Of a stretch of DNA of 64,000 bases, positions 56,047 to 61,977 are shown piece by piece. Position 1 is the first letter of the stretch; each line of letters begins with the position of its first letter. A model generated the notes under the pieces. That model searched no databases. It was not told the DNA's origin and saw only the letters and a program-made list of their open reading frames with translations. This stretch comes from Geomonas azotofigens (lineage in GTDB: Bacteria > Desulfobacterota > Desulfuromonadia > Geobacterales > Geobacteraceae): positions 310,001 to 374,000 of the forward strand of contig NZ_JAHLME010000002.1 of NCBI RefSeq assembly GCF_018919395.1, in the 5' to 3' direction. A program made the position numbers and the translations under genes.

Positions 56047-57609
56047 ATGGATCAAAAGCTTATAAAATCGCTACTTGAAGCAGCGGCCTACCCCGAGCCG
56101 ACGGGAGAGGTGCGCCTGGTCGAGACCCACGTCTCCTTCATCTTCATCACCGACCACTTCGTATACAAGGTGAAAAAGGCCGTCGACTACGGCTTTTTGG
56201 ACTTCACCACGCTGGAGCGGCGCCGCTTCTACTGCGGCGAGGAGGTGCGCCTGAACCGGCGCCTGTGCCCCGAGGTCTACCTCGGCGTCGTGGAGTTGCG
56301 CGAGACGGAGCGGGGCGCCGCCTTCGCCGGCGACGGCGCGGTCATCGACTACGCCGTCAAGATGCGACGTCTCCCCGAGGAGCGCATGCTGGACCGGCTC
56401 CTCAGCGAAGGCGCGGTCTTCCCCGCCGACATGGCACGCATCGCGGCGGCGGTGGCCGCCTTCCATGCCGGCGCCGAGCGCGGCCCGCACATCGACGCCT
56501 GCGCCGCGCCCGAGATGATCGGCCAGAACTGGGAACAGAACTTCCGCCAGAGCGCCCCCTTCGTGGGGAGCACGTTGCGGGCCGGCGAACTGGCGGAAAT
56601 CCGCCAATGGGCGACCTCCTTCCTGGCCGAGAATGAACCCCTGTTTCGCGAGCGTGTCGCCGGCGGCTTCATCAGGGACTGCGACGGCGACCTCCATTCC
56701 GGCAACATCTGCCTGACCGAACCGGTCTGCATCTTCGACTGCATCGAGTTCAGCGAGAAGTTCCGCTACATCGACACCGCCGCCGACCTCGCCTTCCTGC
56801 TCATGGACCTTGAGTACGCCGGGCGCCCCGACCTGGCCCGGGTGCTGCTGGCCGCCTACCGCGAGGCGAGCGGGGATGCCGGCATGTCGCCCCTGCTCGA
56901 CTTCTACAAGGCGCAGCGCGCCTTCGTGCGCGGCAAGGTGACCAGCCTGCGCCTGGCCCAGCCCGGGCTGAGCCCCGAACAGCGCGCCGGTGTCGAGGCC
57001 AGCGCCCGGCGCTACTTCCGCCTGACCCGCGGCTATGCGCTTCGGGGGCGCCTCGTCCCGACGCTCATCCTCACCTGCGGGCTAAGCGGCAGCGGCAAGA
57101 GCAGCCTCGCCGGCGAGCTCAGCCGCGAGCTCGGCCTCGAAATCACCCGCTCCGACCTTGTGCGCAAGGCTCTCGCCGGCGTCCCCGCCGCCGGTGGCGC
57201 CGCGGGCGCTCACGGCCGGGACGGTATCTACAACGACGAGATGGACCGGGCCACCTACGCCGCCCTCCTCGCCGAGGCGGAGCGCGCGCTCGCTCTCGGC
57301 AGGGGCATCGTGGTGGACGCGACCTTCAAGCGGCGCTCCGACCGCGAGCGGTTCCGGCAACTGGCCGCGCGGCTGGACGCTCCGTTTCTCATCGCCCATA
57401 CGCGCTGCCCGGAACAGGTCGCCCACGAGCGCCTCGATCGGCGCCGGCACGACCCCGCCGAGGTCTCCGATGCGCGGTGGGAGCAGTACCAGCGGCAGCG
57501 GGTGGAATTCGAGTTCCCCGAGCCGGGCGAGAGCCTGCTCCTGGACAGCACCCTCCCCGTCTGGGACGAGGCGGACCTGGTAATGGCCGCCATGGGGTTA
57601 TCGGCATGA
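56047..57609 (+). CDS. APH-like kinase fused to an AAA/gluconokinase-type ATPase
   Basis: 520 residues in two parts. Residues 1-330 resemble aminoglycoside phosphotransferase/choline kinases, with KVKKAVDYGFLDF near 40-50 and the catalytic loop DCDGDLHSGNICL (about 211-223) followed by FDCIEFS. Residues 335-520 form a P-loop kinase with GLSGSGKSS (about 344-352) and an arginine-rich end, as in AAA_33 nucleoside or gluconate kinases. The two-domain arrangement is known in environmental bacteria but without an established substrate. It overlaps the next small gene as ATGA, suggesting it is part of the same coupled operon. Confidence 0.75.
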   Translation: MDQKLIKSLLEAAAYPEPTGEVRLVETHVSFIFITDHFVYKVKKAVDYGFLDFTTLERRRFYCGEEVRLNRRLCPEVYLGVVELRETERGAAFAGDGAVIDYAVKMRRLPEERMLDRLLSEGAVFPADMARIAAAVAAFHAGAERGPHIDACAAPEMIGQNWEQNFRQSAPFVGSTLRAGELAEIRQWATSFLAENEPLFRERVAGGFIRDCDGDLHSGNICLTEPVCIFDCIEFSEKFRYIDTAADLAFLLMDLEYAGRPDLARVLLAAYREASGDAGMSPLLDFYKAQRAFVRGKVTSLRLAQPGLSPEQRAGVEASARRYFRLTRGYALRGRLVPTLILTCGLSGSGKSSLAGELSRELGLEITRSDLVRKALAGVPAAGGAAGAHGRDGIYNDEMDRATYAALLAEAERALALGRGIVVDATFKRRSDRERFRQLAARLDAPFLIAHTRCPEQVAHERLDRRRHDPAEVSDARWEQYQRQRVEFEFPEPGESLLLDSTLPVWDEADLVMAAMGLSA

Positions 57610-57854
57610 AGACCACGTTAAGGCAACTGGTGCTGCACCGGCTCAAGCTGAAGGACACCTGGGTGATCTGTTTCGTCCTCGGCATGGTGATGATGAACTA
57701 TCCCTTCATCAGCATCTTCAACAAGACGACCCTCCCCTTCGGGATCCCGCTGCTCTACCTGTACCTGTTGACCGGCTGGAGCTTCTCCATCTTCATCGTC
57801 TACCTGTTCAGCCGGGCGGCACGCAAGGATAGCGACACCAGGGGGCACATGTGA
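57606..57854 (+). CDS. Small two-helix membrane protein of a symporter-like pair
   Basis: 82 residues with two hydrophobic segments (about 18-38 and 44-68). The start overlaps the previous stop as ATGA and the stop overlaps the next gene's start (GTGA or TGATG), so translation of all three is linked. Small proteins with two membrane helices (for example DUF485 YjcH and DUF4212 families) accompany SSS symporters in other systems. This one precedes an SLC5-type sensor, so I infer the same kind of partnership. No closer family was recognised. Confidence 0.7.
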   Translation: MKTTLRQLVLHRLKLKDTWVICFVLGMVMMNYPFISIFNKTTLPFGIPLLYLYLLTGWSFSIFIVYLFSRAARKDSDTRGHM

Positions 57855-60800
57855 TGCTGGATGTCAACTGGGTCTGGGGCACCGCGCTGCTCTACATAGC
57901 CTTTTTGTTCCTGGTCGCCTACTACGCCGACCAGCGCCAGAAGGCGGGCCGCAGCATCACCGCCAACGCCTGGGTCTACGCCCTCTCCATCGCCGTCTAC
58001 GCCACCTCCTGGACCTTCTACGGCTCGGTGGGGAAGGCGGCCACCACCGGCATCGACTTCCTCCCGGTCTACCTCGGCCCGACCCTCACCGCCTTCAGCT
58101 GGTGGTTCCTGCTCAAGAAGATGGTCAGGATCTCCAAGGAAAACAACATCACCTCCATCGCCGACTTCATCAGCTCCCGCTACGGTTCGTCCCAGTGGCT
58201 CGGGGGGATCATCACCGTGATCACCCTGATGGGGGTGATGCCCTACATCGCCCTGCAGCTGAAGGCGGTCTCCACCTCCTTCACCATCATCACCGGCTAC
58301 CACGACTTCCACGTCGGCTTCATGGAGCGGGTCTACATCCCCTCCCCCCACCCCGGCCTCTTCACCGCGCTCTTTCTGGCCCTGTTCAGCGTCATCTTCG
58401 GGGCGAGGCACCTGATATCCACCGAGCGCCACGACGGCCTCGTCGCCGCCATCGCGCTGGAGTCGGTGGTGAAGCTCATGGCGATGCTCACCGTCGGCGT
58501 CTGCATCAGCTACTTCGCCTTCAACGGCATGGGCGACATCTTCCAGCGCGTGCAGCAGAAGGACCCGCAGCTCCTGGCGCGGCTCACCACCCTGGGCGAG
58601 CGCGGCGACAACTCCTACGCCTCCATGTTCAGCATCCTCACCCTCTCCATGGGGGCGGTCATGCTCCTGCCGCGCCAGTTCCAGATCATGGTGCTGGAAA
58701 ACGCGCACGAGTCGCACCTGAACACCGCCTCCTGGCGCTTCCCCGCCTACATGTTCCTGATGAACCTGTTCGTGATGCCGATAGCCCTCGCCGGCGTGCT
58801 CATGAACGGCAGCAACGCTGGGGCCGACTACTTCGTGCTCACCCTCCCCATGCAGCTTGGCTACCCCTGGCTCGCGCTGGTCGCCTTCCTGGGCGGCTTC
58901 TCCGCCTCGGCCGGGATGGTGATGGTCGAGTCCATCGCCGTCTCCACCATGCTCCTGAACCACGTGCTGCTGCCGGTGGTGATCAAGCTCAAGCCGCGCG
59001 CCTGGTTCCCGCAGCTCCTCATCAACCTGAAGCGCTTCGGGATCGTGCTGGTCATCCTCCTTGGCTACCTGTACCAGAGCGTGGTCGGGGAAAGCTACAT
59101 GCTGGCCAACATGGGGCTCATCTCCTTCTCAGCCGCCATCCAGTTCGCCCCGGCGCTGATCGGCGGGCTCTACTGGCCGCGCGGCAACAAGGCGGGCGCC
59201 ATCGTCGGGCTTTTGGCCGGTTTCGCGGTCTGGTTCTACACCCTGCTCATGCCCTCGCTGTTGCGGGCCGGCGGGTGGCAGGGGGACTTCCTGCTCAACG
59301 GCCCCTTCGGCATCGCCCTGCTGCGCCCCCAGGAGCTCTTCGGGCTGACCGGCCTGGACCCGTACACCCACACCCTGTTCTGGAGCATGTTCATGAACAT
59401 CGCCGCCTACCTTTCCCTCTCCATCCTTTTGGGGCAGAGTGAGAAGGAGCGCGAGCAGGTGAACCGCTTCGTGCGCGTCTTCGCCCCGGAGAGCGCGACG
59501 CCGCAGTGGGAGACCAAGCGCCTCTCCAAGCCGGTCACCATCGTGCAGTTCGTGAACCTCATGACCAAGTTCATCGGCGAGCAGCAGGCCAACGCCGCCA
59601 TCACCGACTACCTTGGCGACCGCGAGATCGACAGCAAGGGGGGGGTGTCCGAGTTCGAGCTCCCCAACCTGAAGCGCTTCGTGGAGAAGACCCTGGCCGG
59701 CTCGCTCGGCGGCGCGGCGGCAGGCGCGGTGGTCGAGAGCTTCCTCTCCGACATCGGCTCCCGGATGGAGCCGGTCTACGACATCTTCTCCACGGTGCGC
59801 ACCTCGCGCGACCAAAGCCGCGAGGCGCTCTTCGTCAGGCTGCGCGCCTCCGAGATCATGAACCGCTCCCTGGAGCTGGACATCATCATGGGGGACCTCC
59901 TCGAACTTTTGCTGCGCGAGTTCAAGCTCGACCTCGCCGTGATCCGCCTTCTGAACGAGGAGTCGGTGCTGCAGGTCCGCTGCTACCGCGGCATCGGCGG
60001 GGAACGCCTCACCGCCGAGGACCGCATCCTCGAAATCGACACCCACGTCGGCGAGGCCTTCCTCGGGCGCCGCACCGAGTTCTTCAACGACACCGCCTTC
60101 ATCACCAAGCCGATCGCCAAGGAGATCTTCCGCCGGGAGGGGATCAAGTCCTTCGCCCACATCCCCATCGCCAGCGAGGGGGCCCAGCCGGTCGGCATCC
60201 TCTCCGTCTTCTCCCGCTCCATCGTCGGGCTTTTCACCGAGCAGTTCGTGGAACTCCTGGAGAGCCTCGCCGGGCAGCTGGCCCAGGCGGTGCGCATCGT
60301 CGAGGAGCGCGAGGCCAAGGAGCGGGAACGGCACCAGAAGGAGGCCGCCCTCTTGGAGAACGCCAGGGTGACCCGGGACCTCGAGCTCGCCAAGCAGATC
60401 CAGCTCTCGCTCCTCCCCGAGGCCCCGCCCACCCTGCCGGGGGTGCGCATCGCCTGCCGCTGCGTCCCGGCGACCCACGTGGGGGGGGACTACTACGACT
60501 TCTTCCAGCGCGGCGGCCAGGTGGTGGACATGGTCATGGCCGACGTCTCCGGCCACAGCGTGGGCGCCGCCCTCATCATGGTGGAGACCCGCAGCGTGCT
60601 GAGGGCCCAGATCGAGGAGCCGCGCTCGGCCCGGGACCTTTTGAAGCTCCTGAACGAGCTCCTCTACGACGACCTGAGCGCCGCCGAGCTTTTCATCACC
60701 ATGTTCTGCGCGCGCTACGACGGCGCGACCCGGACCCTGCGCTACGCCAACGCCGGCCATACCCGCCCCCTGCTCTTCCGCGCCGGGAGCTGGCTGGAGC

Positions 60801-61090
60801 TCGACGCCGAGGGGCTCATCCTCGGCGTGGAACGGAACGTGGTTTTCGAGGAACAGCACATGCAGCTGCGGGCGGGGGATCTCCTCTTCATCTACACCGA
60901 CGGCATCATCGAGGCGGAGAACGGCCAAGGGGAGCTGTTCGGCATCCCGAGGCTGTGCGGCCTGATGGAGACGCTCCTGGAGCTGGACCCCGAGGTGGTG
61001 ATCGAGAAGGTGCTTTCGGAGGTTTACTCCTACGCCTGGCCCAATCCTTTACAGGACGACATATCCATGGTAGTCATGAAAGTTGCCTGA
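57851..61090 (+). CDS. SLC5-type transporter sensor fused to STAC, GAF and PP2C (SpoIIE) phosphatase domains
   Basis: 1079 residues. Residues 1-535 form a sodium:solute symporter-like membrane region with about thirteen segments. Residues about 600-640 (EFELPNLKRFVEKTLAGSLG) match the STAC domain, known as the linker between SLC5 sensors and histidine kinases. A GAF domain follows (about 660-820) and the C-terminus (about 860-1078) is a PP2C/SpoIIE phosphatase with HVGGDYYDFF, ADVSGHSVGAAL, TDGIIEAENG and a final DDISMVV, which carry the metal-binding aspartates. It likely senses a transported solute or membrane state and dephosphorylates the STAS protein encoded next. The start is GTG at 57851 or ATG at 57854. 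Replacing the usual kinase with a phosphatase is unusual. Confidence 0.9.
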   Translation: MMLDVNWVWGTALLYIAFLFLVAYYADQRQKAGRSITANAWVYALSIAVYATSWTFYGSVGKAATTGIDFLPVYLGPTLTAFSWWFLLKKMVRISKENNITSIADFISSRYGSSQWLGGIITVITLMGVMPYIALQLKAVSTSFTIITGYHDFHVGFMERVYIPSPHPGLFTALFLALFSVIFGARHLISTERHDGLVAAIALESVVKLMAMLTVGVCISYFAFNGMGDIFQRVQQKDPQLLARLTTLGERGDNSYASMFSILTLSMGAVMLLPRQFQIMVLENAHESHLNTASWRFPAYMFLMNLFVMPIALAGVLMNGSNAGADYFVLTLPMQLGYPWLALVAFLGGFSASAGMVMVESIAVSTMLLNHVLLPVVIKLKPRAWFPQLLINLKRFGIVLVILLGYLYQSVVGESYMLANMGLISFSAAIQFAPALIGGLYWPRGNKAGAIVGLLAGFAVWFYTLLMPSLLRAGGWQGDFLLNGPFGIALLRPQELFGLTGLDPYTHTLFWSMFMNIAAYLSLSILLGQSEKEREQVNRFVRVFAPESATPQWETKRLSKPVTIVQFVNLMTKFIGEQQANAAITDYLGDREIDSKGGVSEFELPNLKRFVEKTLAGSLGGAAAGAVVESFLSDIGSRMEPVYDIFSTVRTSRDQSREALFVRLRASEIMNRSLELDIIMGDLLELLLREFKLDLAVIRLLNEESVLQVRCYRGIGGERLTAEDRILEIDTHVGEAFLGRRTEFFNDTAFITKPIAKEIFRREGIKSFAHIPIASEGAQPVGILSVFSRSIVGLFTEQFVELLESLAGQLAQAVRIVEEREAKERERHQKEAALLENARVTRDLELAKQIQLSLLPEAPPTLPGVRIACRCVPATHVGGDYYDFFQRGGQVVDMVMADVSGHSVGAALIMVETRSVLRAQIEEPRSARDLLKLLNELLYDDLSAAELFITMFCARYDGATRTLRYANAGHTRPLLFRAGSWLELDAEGLILGVERNVVFEEQHMQLRAGDLLFIYTDGIIEAENGQGELFGIPRLCGLMETLLELDPEVVIEKVLSEVYSYAWPNPLQDDISMVVMKVA

Positions 61091-61181
61091 CCCGGGGGCT
61101 GCGCCACTTGCTAAATGTCGGCGCTTATTGCACAATGAATCTGGCTGTATACCGTACGGACCTCAAAACAAGGAGATGGTC

Positions 61182-61523
61182 ATGAACCTAGCGAGCGAGA
61201 CGAGGAACGACGTTGTAATCATATACGTCAAGGAGGAAAGGCTGGACGCGCACAACTCGACCGAACTGAAAAGTGCGGTACAGAAGCTTTTCGAGGACGG
61301 CAAGAAGAATGTCCTGGTGGACCTGAAGGATGTACGTTTTATCGACAGTTCCGGGTTGGGCGCGCTGGTTTCCGGGTTCAAGAACGCCATCTCGCACCAG
61401 GGCAACCTGAAACTCTCCTCGCTGCAGTCCCAGGTCAAGTCGATGTTCGAGCTGACCCGTCTGCACCGGGTCTTCGAGATATTCCCTTCAACGGTGGAGG
61501 CGGTGGAGAACTTCCAGTCCTAA
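61182..61523 (+). CDS. STAS-domain anti-anti-sigma factor (RsbV/SpoIIAA type)
   Basis: 113 residues; AGGAG with six bases to the ATG at 61182 decides the start over an ATG within the ribosome site. The phosphoserine loop is FIDSSGLGAL (54-63), with the usual target Ser in DSSGLG. Unphosphorylated STAS proteins of this kind bind the anti-sigma kinase and free the sigma factor; PP2C phosphatases such as RsbU or SpoIIE reactivate them. It lies 91 bp after the PP2C fusion and 31 bp before the kinase gene. Confidence 0.92.
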   Translation: MNLASETRNDVVIIYVKEERLDAHNSTELKSAVQKLFEDGKKNVLVDLKDVRFIDSSGLGALVSGFKNAISHQGNLKLSSLQSQVKSMFELTRLHRVFEIFPSTVEAVENFQS

Positions 61524-61554
61524 CTGGTCGGGCGGCGGCAAAGCGAGGCGTCAG

Positions 61555-61977
61555 ATGGAAAACACGATCGAGGTCGACATAAAGGTTCCCAACAAGACCA
61601 GGTACCTGAGTCTTATCGGGAAGATCGGGGAGGACATCGCCCGCGAGCTGGAGCGTTACAGCGGCGACAAGGAGGTTCTCGCCTACCATCTGAACCTGGT
61701 GCTCACCGAGGCCATGGTGAACGCCATCAAGCACGCCGGGCCGAAAGAACCGGAAAAGCTGGTGCGCATCGTGATCACCCTGCACCGGGACGACCTGACC
61801 ATCAGGGTCTACGACGACGGCCAGGGGTTCGACATCAACGCCATCCCGGCCCCCAACTTCGAGGAGTTGGAGGACCGGGGCCGCGGCATCTTCCTGATCC
61901 GCACGCTGATGGACTCCGTGGCCTACAGAAAGAACTGCAAGGAAAACATGCTGGAGATGAAGAAGAAGCTCTCCTGA
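61555..61977 (+). CDS. RsbW-like anti-sigma factor / serine protein kinase
   Basis: 140 residues, a GHKL ATPase. Glu52 and Asn56 in LTEAMVNAIKHAG form the N box, DDGQGFD (87-93) the G1 box and RGRGIFLI (108-115) the G2 box. It would phosphorylate the STAS protein and hold a sigma factor or other target inactive. No sigma factor gene is nearby, so the target is unknown. It is the last gene of the group and ends 3 bp before the convergent lgt gene. Confidence 0.9.
   Translation: MENTIEVDIKVPNKTRYLSLIGKIGEDIARELERYSGDKEVLAYHLNLVLTEAMVNAIKHAGPKEPEKLVRIVITLHRDDLTIRVYDDGQGFDINAIPAPNFEELEDRGRGIFLIRTLMDSVAYRKNCKENMLEMKKKLS

Follow-up and report, generated by a model that had tools for sequence, protein, structure and literature searches.

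Partner switches are known to act on STAS and kinase targets; the STAS phosphosite of SpoIIAA and RsbV occurs in the variants DS(S/T)GLG, and RsbW-like kinases usually hold sigma factors. CbrA of Pseudomonas is an SLC5-STAC receptor, which in the available passages of PMC13022988 is reported to transport histidine and to have its Na2 site filled by a lysine, K196. The same passages state that CbrA-dependent growth does not need its small companion CbrX, and a section title in PMC6591292 reads 'CbrX is essential for CbrA production'. According to a passage of PMC5715377 the STAC domain precedes an array of different signalling domains, among which histidine kinases and GGDEF are named; the word 'array' does not exclude phosphatase outputs. 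In Actinobacteria, SSS proteins that carry GAF, PP2C_SIG and HATPase_c are mentioned in a passage of a 2021 review (PMC7918813).

Here we analyse a four-gene locus of Geomonas azotofigens (57606-61977, forward strand, from the ORF listing) in the window, by which we mean the whole 64,000-nucleotide stretch of DNA under study. The locus encodes a small protein, x, an SLC5-STAC-GAF-PP2C sensor, a free STAS protein and an RsbW-like kinase. We consider it probable that the sensor is a CbrA-type transceptor in which a PP2C phosphatase has taken the place of the histidine-kinase output and feeds into a partner switch.

Domain architecture of the locus

The initial annotation had read the sensor as SLC5, STAC, GAF and PP2C in that order, followed by a STAS protein with DSSGLG and then an RsbW-like kinase. 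Pfam together with the CbrA profile match confirmed the domain order, and family matches and ORFs confirmed the downstream pair (Table 1). ATG 57854, which shares TGATG with the stop of x, is a more likely start of the sensor than GTG 57851. The STAS protein likely starts at ATG 61182, ahead of which lies AAGGAG, with 61176 as an alternative.

Table 1. Features of the locus and of the adjoining upstream gene (positions in the window)
Feature	Position	Strand	Basis or remark
AAA_33 kinase-like protein	56047..57609	+	family match; overlaps x
x, 82 aa, predicted two-helix membrane protein	57606..57854	+	CbrX-like by size, topology and position
Sensor, 1079 aa (1078 aa from ATG 57854)	57851-61090	+	ORF
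SLC5-like transporter domain, residues 1 to about 545	57851..59485	+	matched to CbrA 10ed_A by profile
STAC domain, about residues 557-635	59519..59755	+	within 10ed match; four helices, low-confidence model
GAF domain, residues 674-814	59870..60292	+	Pfam GAF_2 E 9e-13
Long helical GAF-to-PP2C linker, residues 797-853	60239..60409	+	model secondary structure only
SpoIIE-type PP2C/PPM phosphatase domain, residues 892-1078	60524..61084	+	Pfam SpoIIE E 2e-46; conserved Asp columns
STAS anti-anti-sigma-type protein, 113 aa, DSSGLG	61182..61523	+	TIGR00377 above cut-off
RsbW/SpoIIAB-like serine kinase, 140 aa	61555..61977	+	HATPase_c_2 E 3e-24

A 47-sequence SLC5-STAC profile matched one solved chain, CbrA (10ed_A; positions 3-632, E 2.6e-116). 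Since this match spans the SLC5 and STAC parts of CbrA, both assignments stand. Homology runs along the 13-helix CbrA domain as a profile match rather than as a separate helix count, the model being poor, and extends through the CbrA STAC, with four helices predicted at 564-634 at low confidence. Only secondary structure was taken from the AlphaFold model of the sensor (mean pLDDT 57.5, alignment of 19 sequences). The STAC of the window sensor has LGGAAA where the motif in a passage of PMC4834066 is LGPx(x)A. Pfam SSF matched 14 of the 47 SLC5-STAC relatives and not the window sensor, and TIGR03648 matched its SLC5 part weakly; we guess that the SSF miss may explain how such proteins escape domain-table surveys. 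Pfam detected neither HisKA nor HATPase_c in the sensor, which is thus a receptor relative outside the CbrA/CrbS kinase class. Its nearest named records in a named-genome scan were Geomonas species, the best four at 94-95% identity.

Pocket residues taken from the available part of PMC13022988 were mapped onto the sensor by eye from the profile alignment. CbrA Y51, S53, W55, A56, F71, Y75, F248 and F406 correspond to Y50, T52, W54, T55, F70, Y74, S266 and F426; five of the eight are identical, and S53, A56 and F248 are exchanged. Conservation was scored in the window and 67 of the 103 syntenic loci described below (n=68), where the pocket columns are strongly kept (W54, T55 and F426 in 68/68, T52 in 67/68). 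By the same by-eye mapping K208 is the equivalent of CbrA K196, and it is kept in 67/68 syntenic phosphatase forms, in 10 of 10 solitary copies examined (13 in all) and in 41/42 kinase forms. This conservation makes proton coupling or no transport likelier than sodium; on the sequences, sodium coupling across the SLC5-STAC group is doubtful, and with it the 'solute:sodium' part of the symporter-like label first given to the domain.

In the phosphatase domain D880, D898, D1017 and D1070, among which we take the metal-binding residues to lie, are conserved in 67/68 sequences, with one gap. The metal-site Asp residues of partner-switch phosphatases therefore appear to be present, and the STAS protein is the predicted substrate. 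This protein keeps DSSGLG in 68/68 sequences, reaches 81.9 bits against TIGR00377 (cut-off 53.45) while staying short of the SpoIIAA equivalog cut-off, and has TM1442 as its closest solved chain. The kinase retains E52, N56, G89 and G91, presumably with the roles of the N-box Glu/Asn and G-box residues, each in 68/68; its closest solved chain is RsbW 6m36, and it scores under the RsbW equivalog cut-offs. Between the window and its closest relatives, L034-L040, the PP2C domain (84-90%) is more variable than the GAF domain (94-98%) and the STAS protein (98-100%).

Gene linkage, distribution and history

We fetched 160 loci, 40 each at family, order, phylum and class level, picked as a subset of the hit lists and not at random. 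They comprised 117 phosphatase-type and 42 kinase-type loci and one truncated phosphatase form (L067). STAS and RsbW-like genes lay downstream of the sensor in 103 of the 117 phosphatase-type loci, so that the proposed adjacency held across genomes, and x lay upstream in all 103. The syntenic share was 33/36 for the family, 30/37 for the order, 36/40 for the class and 4/4 for the phylum draw, whose four phosphatase-type loci come from the window's class. The 14 non-syntenic loci were L262, which has x and lies at a contig end, and 13 solitary SLC5-STAC-GAF-PP2C copies (L068-L070, L079, L090, L092, L094, L099, L104, L111, L277, L280 and L288). No x, STAS or RsbW was found in the fetched stretches of the latter, although two of these stretches (L070 and L079) are close to a contig end; in some cases the same genome also has a complete locus. 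Neither STAS nor RsbW was found within the fetched stretches of the 42 kinase-type loci. In the 30 syntenic order-level loci, some of them truncated by contig ends, AAA_33 was present in 23 and lgt in 9. The homology of the parts and the linkage of their genes are shown by these comparisons.

The small protein was found by tblastn in 103/103 syntenic phosphatase loci and shows two hydrophobic stretches in the alignment. Its stop overlaps a sensor start codon in 86 of these loci (4 nt in 63, 1 nt in 23), in line with the translational coupling given in the initial annotation, and in the remaining 17 it lies within 19 nt of the sensor start. Against solved chains x gave no CbrX match, in a library that may lack a CbrX chain; the best hit, at E 0.17, was unrelated. 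The stop codon of the AAA_33 gene and the start codon of x share the sequence ATGA, and the AAA_33 gene is present in 75/103 syntenic loci (33+23+0+19 for family, order, phylum and class; contig ends truncate some loci). It is a conserved neighbour, though probably not an obligatory one, and possibly an operon member.

The locus recurs in most sampled genomes of one class of Geobacter-like bacteria. Of 200 class genomes with a completeness of 90% or more, 171 were matched by the full-length query (E<=1e-150); among the matches listed, alignments reach residue 1077-1079 except in G116 and G049, which end early, and G078 (6.9e-152) is probably a kinase form. The SLC5-STAC query matched 126/141 order genomes at E<=1e-3, some of them kinase forms or weak, and 68 of 297 genomes in an even draw across the phylum, some weakly. 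A hand tally of 112 order genomes at least 90% complete, uncorrected for kinship and with a few sensors from truncated frames, found sensor and STAS ortholog together in 92, the sensor only in 1 (G035, fragmented), STAS only in 5 and neither in 14; G078 was counted as having no sensor, and the 35-36% STAS matches of G105 and G111 as non-orthologous. Beyond the window's phylum, and thus also in Actinobacteria, the coverage of phosphatase forms is that of the named-genome scan, which detects close relatives only. On plasmids, 63 of 72,556 records had an SLC5-STAC match (E<=1e-10), and of 356 records matching the full sensor query none covered 80% of it. One plasmid, NC_020548.1 of Azoarcus sp. 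KH32C, has an SLC5-STAC-like match (202185-203933) within a gene annotated as an EAL-domain protein, possibly another SLC5-STAC output.

All 42 other SLC5-STAC proteins scanned carry HATPase_c, and 40 of the 42 HisKA. A quick tree of 84 SLC5-STAC rows (the window, 28 of the 103 syntenic loci, 13 solitary copies and 42 kinase forms; no bootstrap, root not fixed) had a branch (SH-aLRT 99) that set the 42 phosphatase rows apart from the kinase rows; the solitary copies were nested among the former. A single output swap is therefore the simplest history and, as kinase forms are widely spread, the swap would have run from kinase to phosphatase.

One genus of the same family offers a natural deletion control. 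Its genomes G040, G041, G042, G045 and G046 have an orthologous STAS protein (58-64% identity) and no SLC5-STAC match. In 5/5 loci fetched a PP2C domain (50-54% identical to the window domain), STAS and RsbW follow in the usual order, flanked by AAA_33 (4/5) and lgt (5/5), and neither x nor SLC5-STAC-GAF gave a match there. The motifs GGDYYDFF and DVSGH are retained in all five short PP2C proteins, in which no more of the GAF-to-PP2C stretch is left than its final 43-54 residues. Receptor loss is the simpler reading, since related families have the receptor at the same spot. The joint absence of x and SLC5-STAC-GAF, with the switch kept, indicates a removable receptor separable from a core PP2C-STAS-RsbW switch.

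Proposed signal path and its alternatives

We infer conformational coupling, STAS dephosphorylation, polarity, ligand and target as follows. By analogy with CbrXA, x and the SLC5 domain would form the membrane receptor, and ligand binding in the SLC5 pocket, or a transport cycle there that may be coupled to protons, would move the STAC. As in SpoIIE and RsbP, this change and a cytoplasmic GAF signal could then be relayed along a long helix to the switch helices of the PP2C, setting phosphatase activity; the helix predicted with low confidence at 797-853 would connect the GAF to this switch. The families, the conserved residues and the gene linkage suggest that the RsbW-like kinase phosphorylates the DSSGLG serine of STAS and that the PP2C takes the phosphate off. 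More tentatively, unphosphorylated STAS might bind the kinase and release the second partner of that kinase, which may be an alternative sigma factor, with the RpoS-like one as first candidate. The fullest version of this path, in which, throughout one class of Geobacter-like bacteria, the transceptor directly gates the Ser/Thr phosphatase and a transport cycle driven by nutrients or protons thereby sets a switch on a global factor (RpoS-like sigma or other) after one histidine-kinase replacement, is plausible, but we are close to undecided about it and lean slightly against.

The genome has three SpoIIE domains, in the sensor, in a REC-PAS-PP2C protein and in a REC-PAS-PAS-PP2C protein (by eye; L002, G000:C12, around 458.6-462.3 kb). 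The phosphatase part of the last is 53% identical to that of the sensor, which may therefore not be the sole input; the L002 protein could act on the same STAS protein as another input. Of five STAS matches in the genome the window protein is the strongest; a 605-aa frame was taken, by its size, as a SulP transporter, and another match (L258) adjoins an MCP-like ORF by eye. Two free HATPase_c_2 proteins far outscore all others, the window kinase and C11:141345. The latter is a second free RsbW-like protein (L231, 1462-1905), and no STAS or PP2C was seen by eye within 3.4 kb around it. A further locus, L303 (14411-16690), encodes a protein of 759 aa whose N-terminus is phosphoesterase-like and which also has a P-loop NTPase-like part; by eye it looks STAND-like.

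The initial remark that no sigma factor lies nearby holds for the sigma-70 family: a region-2 search, which does not cover sigma-54, found five genes, all outside the window. One of them is, by size, probably RpoD, and the top RpoS match, C11:456834, reached 324.6 bits (family cut-off 378.7). With so few candidates the target question is directly testable. It is quite possible, if not what we would bet on, that the final target of the switch is not a sigma factor but, for example, an enzyme or a second-messenger protein. Sigma factors are, from family knowledge, the usual partners of RsbW-like kinases, and the genome does encode the RpoS-like factor, albeit below the cut-off; on the other side stand the window without a sigma-70-family gene and neighbour clustering of the fetched loci, which brought out no conspicuously conserved gene downstream of RsbW on the same strand. 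Precedents point both ways in the passages available: the Vibrio STAS protein SypA acts on an unidentified target (PMC8256260), whereas Pseudomonas RpoS is under partner switches (PMC6482189).

Somewhat unlikely, in our judgement, is that the cytoplasmic GAF, with cell state, is the true sensor and that SLC5-STAC serves mainly as an anchor or a reporter of proton-motive force with no specific nutrient ligand. Overexpressed CbrA does respond to carbon availability after deletion of its transmembrane helices, which a passage of PMC6591292 describes as dispensable for signal detection; members of the genus have well conserved GAF domains (84-98% identity, L034-L051), and the retained K208 is a further point in favour. 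The strong conservation of the SLC5 pocket speaks against this reading, however, and in the receptor-less genus x, SLC5-STAC and GAF are absent together, so that the GAF is not retained without the membrane part.

We regard as improbable a reversed flow, in which a working symporter has its transport adjusted by the phosphatase, STAS and kinase set, since the set is kept without a transporter in five loci and partner switches are known from their families to target STAS and kinase partners. This reading would accommodate the histidine transport reported for CbrA (PMC13022988) and the part in solute transport regulation proposed for STAC in the available text of PMC4834066. Chance adjacency or an inherited block without functional linkage is hardly credible: some of the loci do retain TPR, ABC and lgt neighbours as well, but the linkage of x, STAS and RsbW persists in many order-level loci where these flanks are lost, and solitary sensors lack all three genes together.

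Relation to known systems

The initial annotation had suggested that a phosphatase output to partner switching would be a different route for transporter-type sensing. Phosphatase-linked SSS proteins are, however, not wholly undescribed, since the passage of PMC7918813 already names SSS proteins with PP2C_SIG. The literature found, as titles, abstract starts and passages, describes no SLC5-STAC-PP2C protein with STAS/RsbW, and a transporter-to-partner-switch pathway, if true, would have no earlier description there. It appears that the SLC5-STAC module can be wired to serine dephosphorylation besides histidine phosphorylation, a point of interest for the way in which STAC transmits signals, and the Geobacter group has a widely conserved, apparently uncharacterised switch.

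The actinobacterial proteins, compared by description only, resemble the window sensor in joining SSS/SLC5 to a PP2C output, and differ in that PP2C is named with HATPase_c in the same proteins and STAC goes unmentioned in that passage. In the available part of PMC11109136, 5TM S-component-fold receptors likewise fuse a transporter-related membrane fold to a PPM-type phosphatase; the fold is other than the SLC5 of the window. The SpoIIE/RsbU/RsbP - SpoIIAA/RsbV - SpoIIAB/RsbW switches share with the locus the PP2C, a STAS protein with DS(S/T)GLG and a GHKL serine kinase. In contrast to them, the input here is a transporter-like receptor and the cluster has no sigma-70-family gene. CbrX-CbrA differs in its output, a histidine kinase with response regulator where the window has PP2C and the STAS/RsbW pair, in its PAS domain where the window has GAF, and in CbrX, to which x has no detected sequence match. 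Common to both are an SLC5-STAC receptor homologous over its full length, five of eight pocket residues together with the Na2-site lysine, and a small two-helix protein gene that lies just upstream of the sensor gene and overlaps it.
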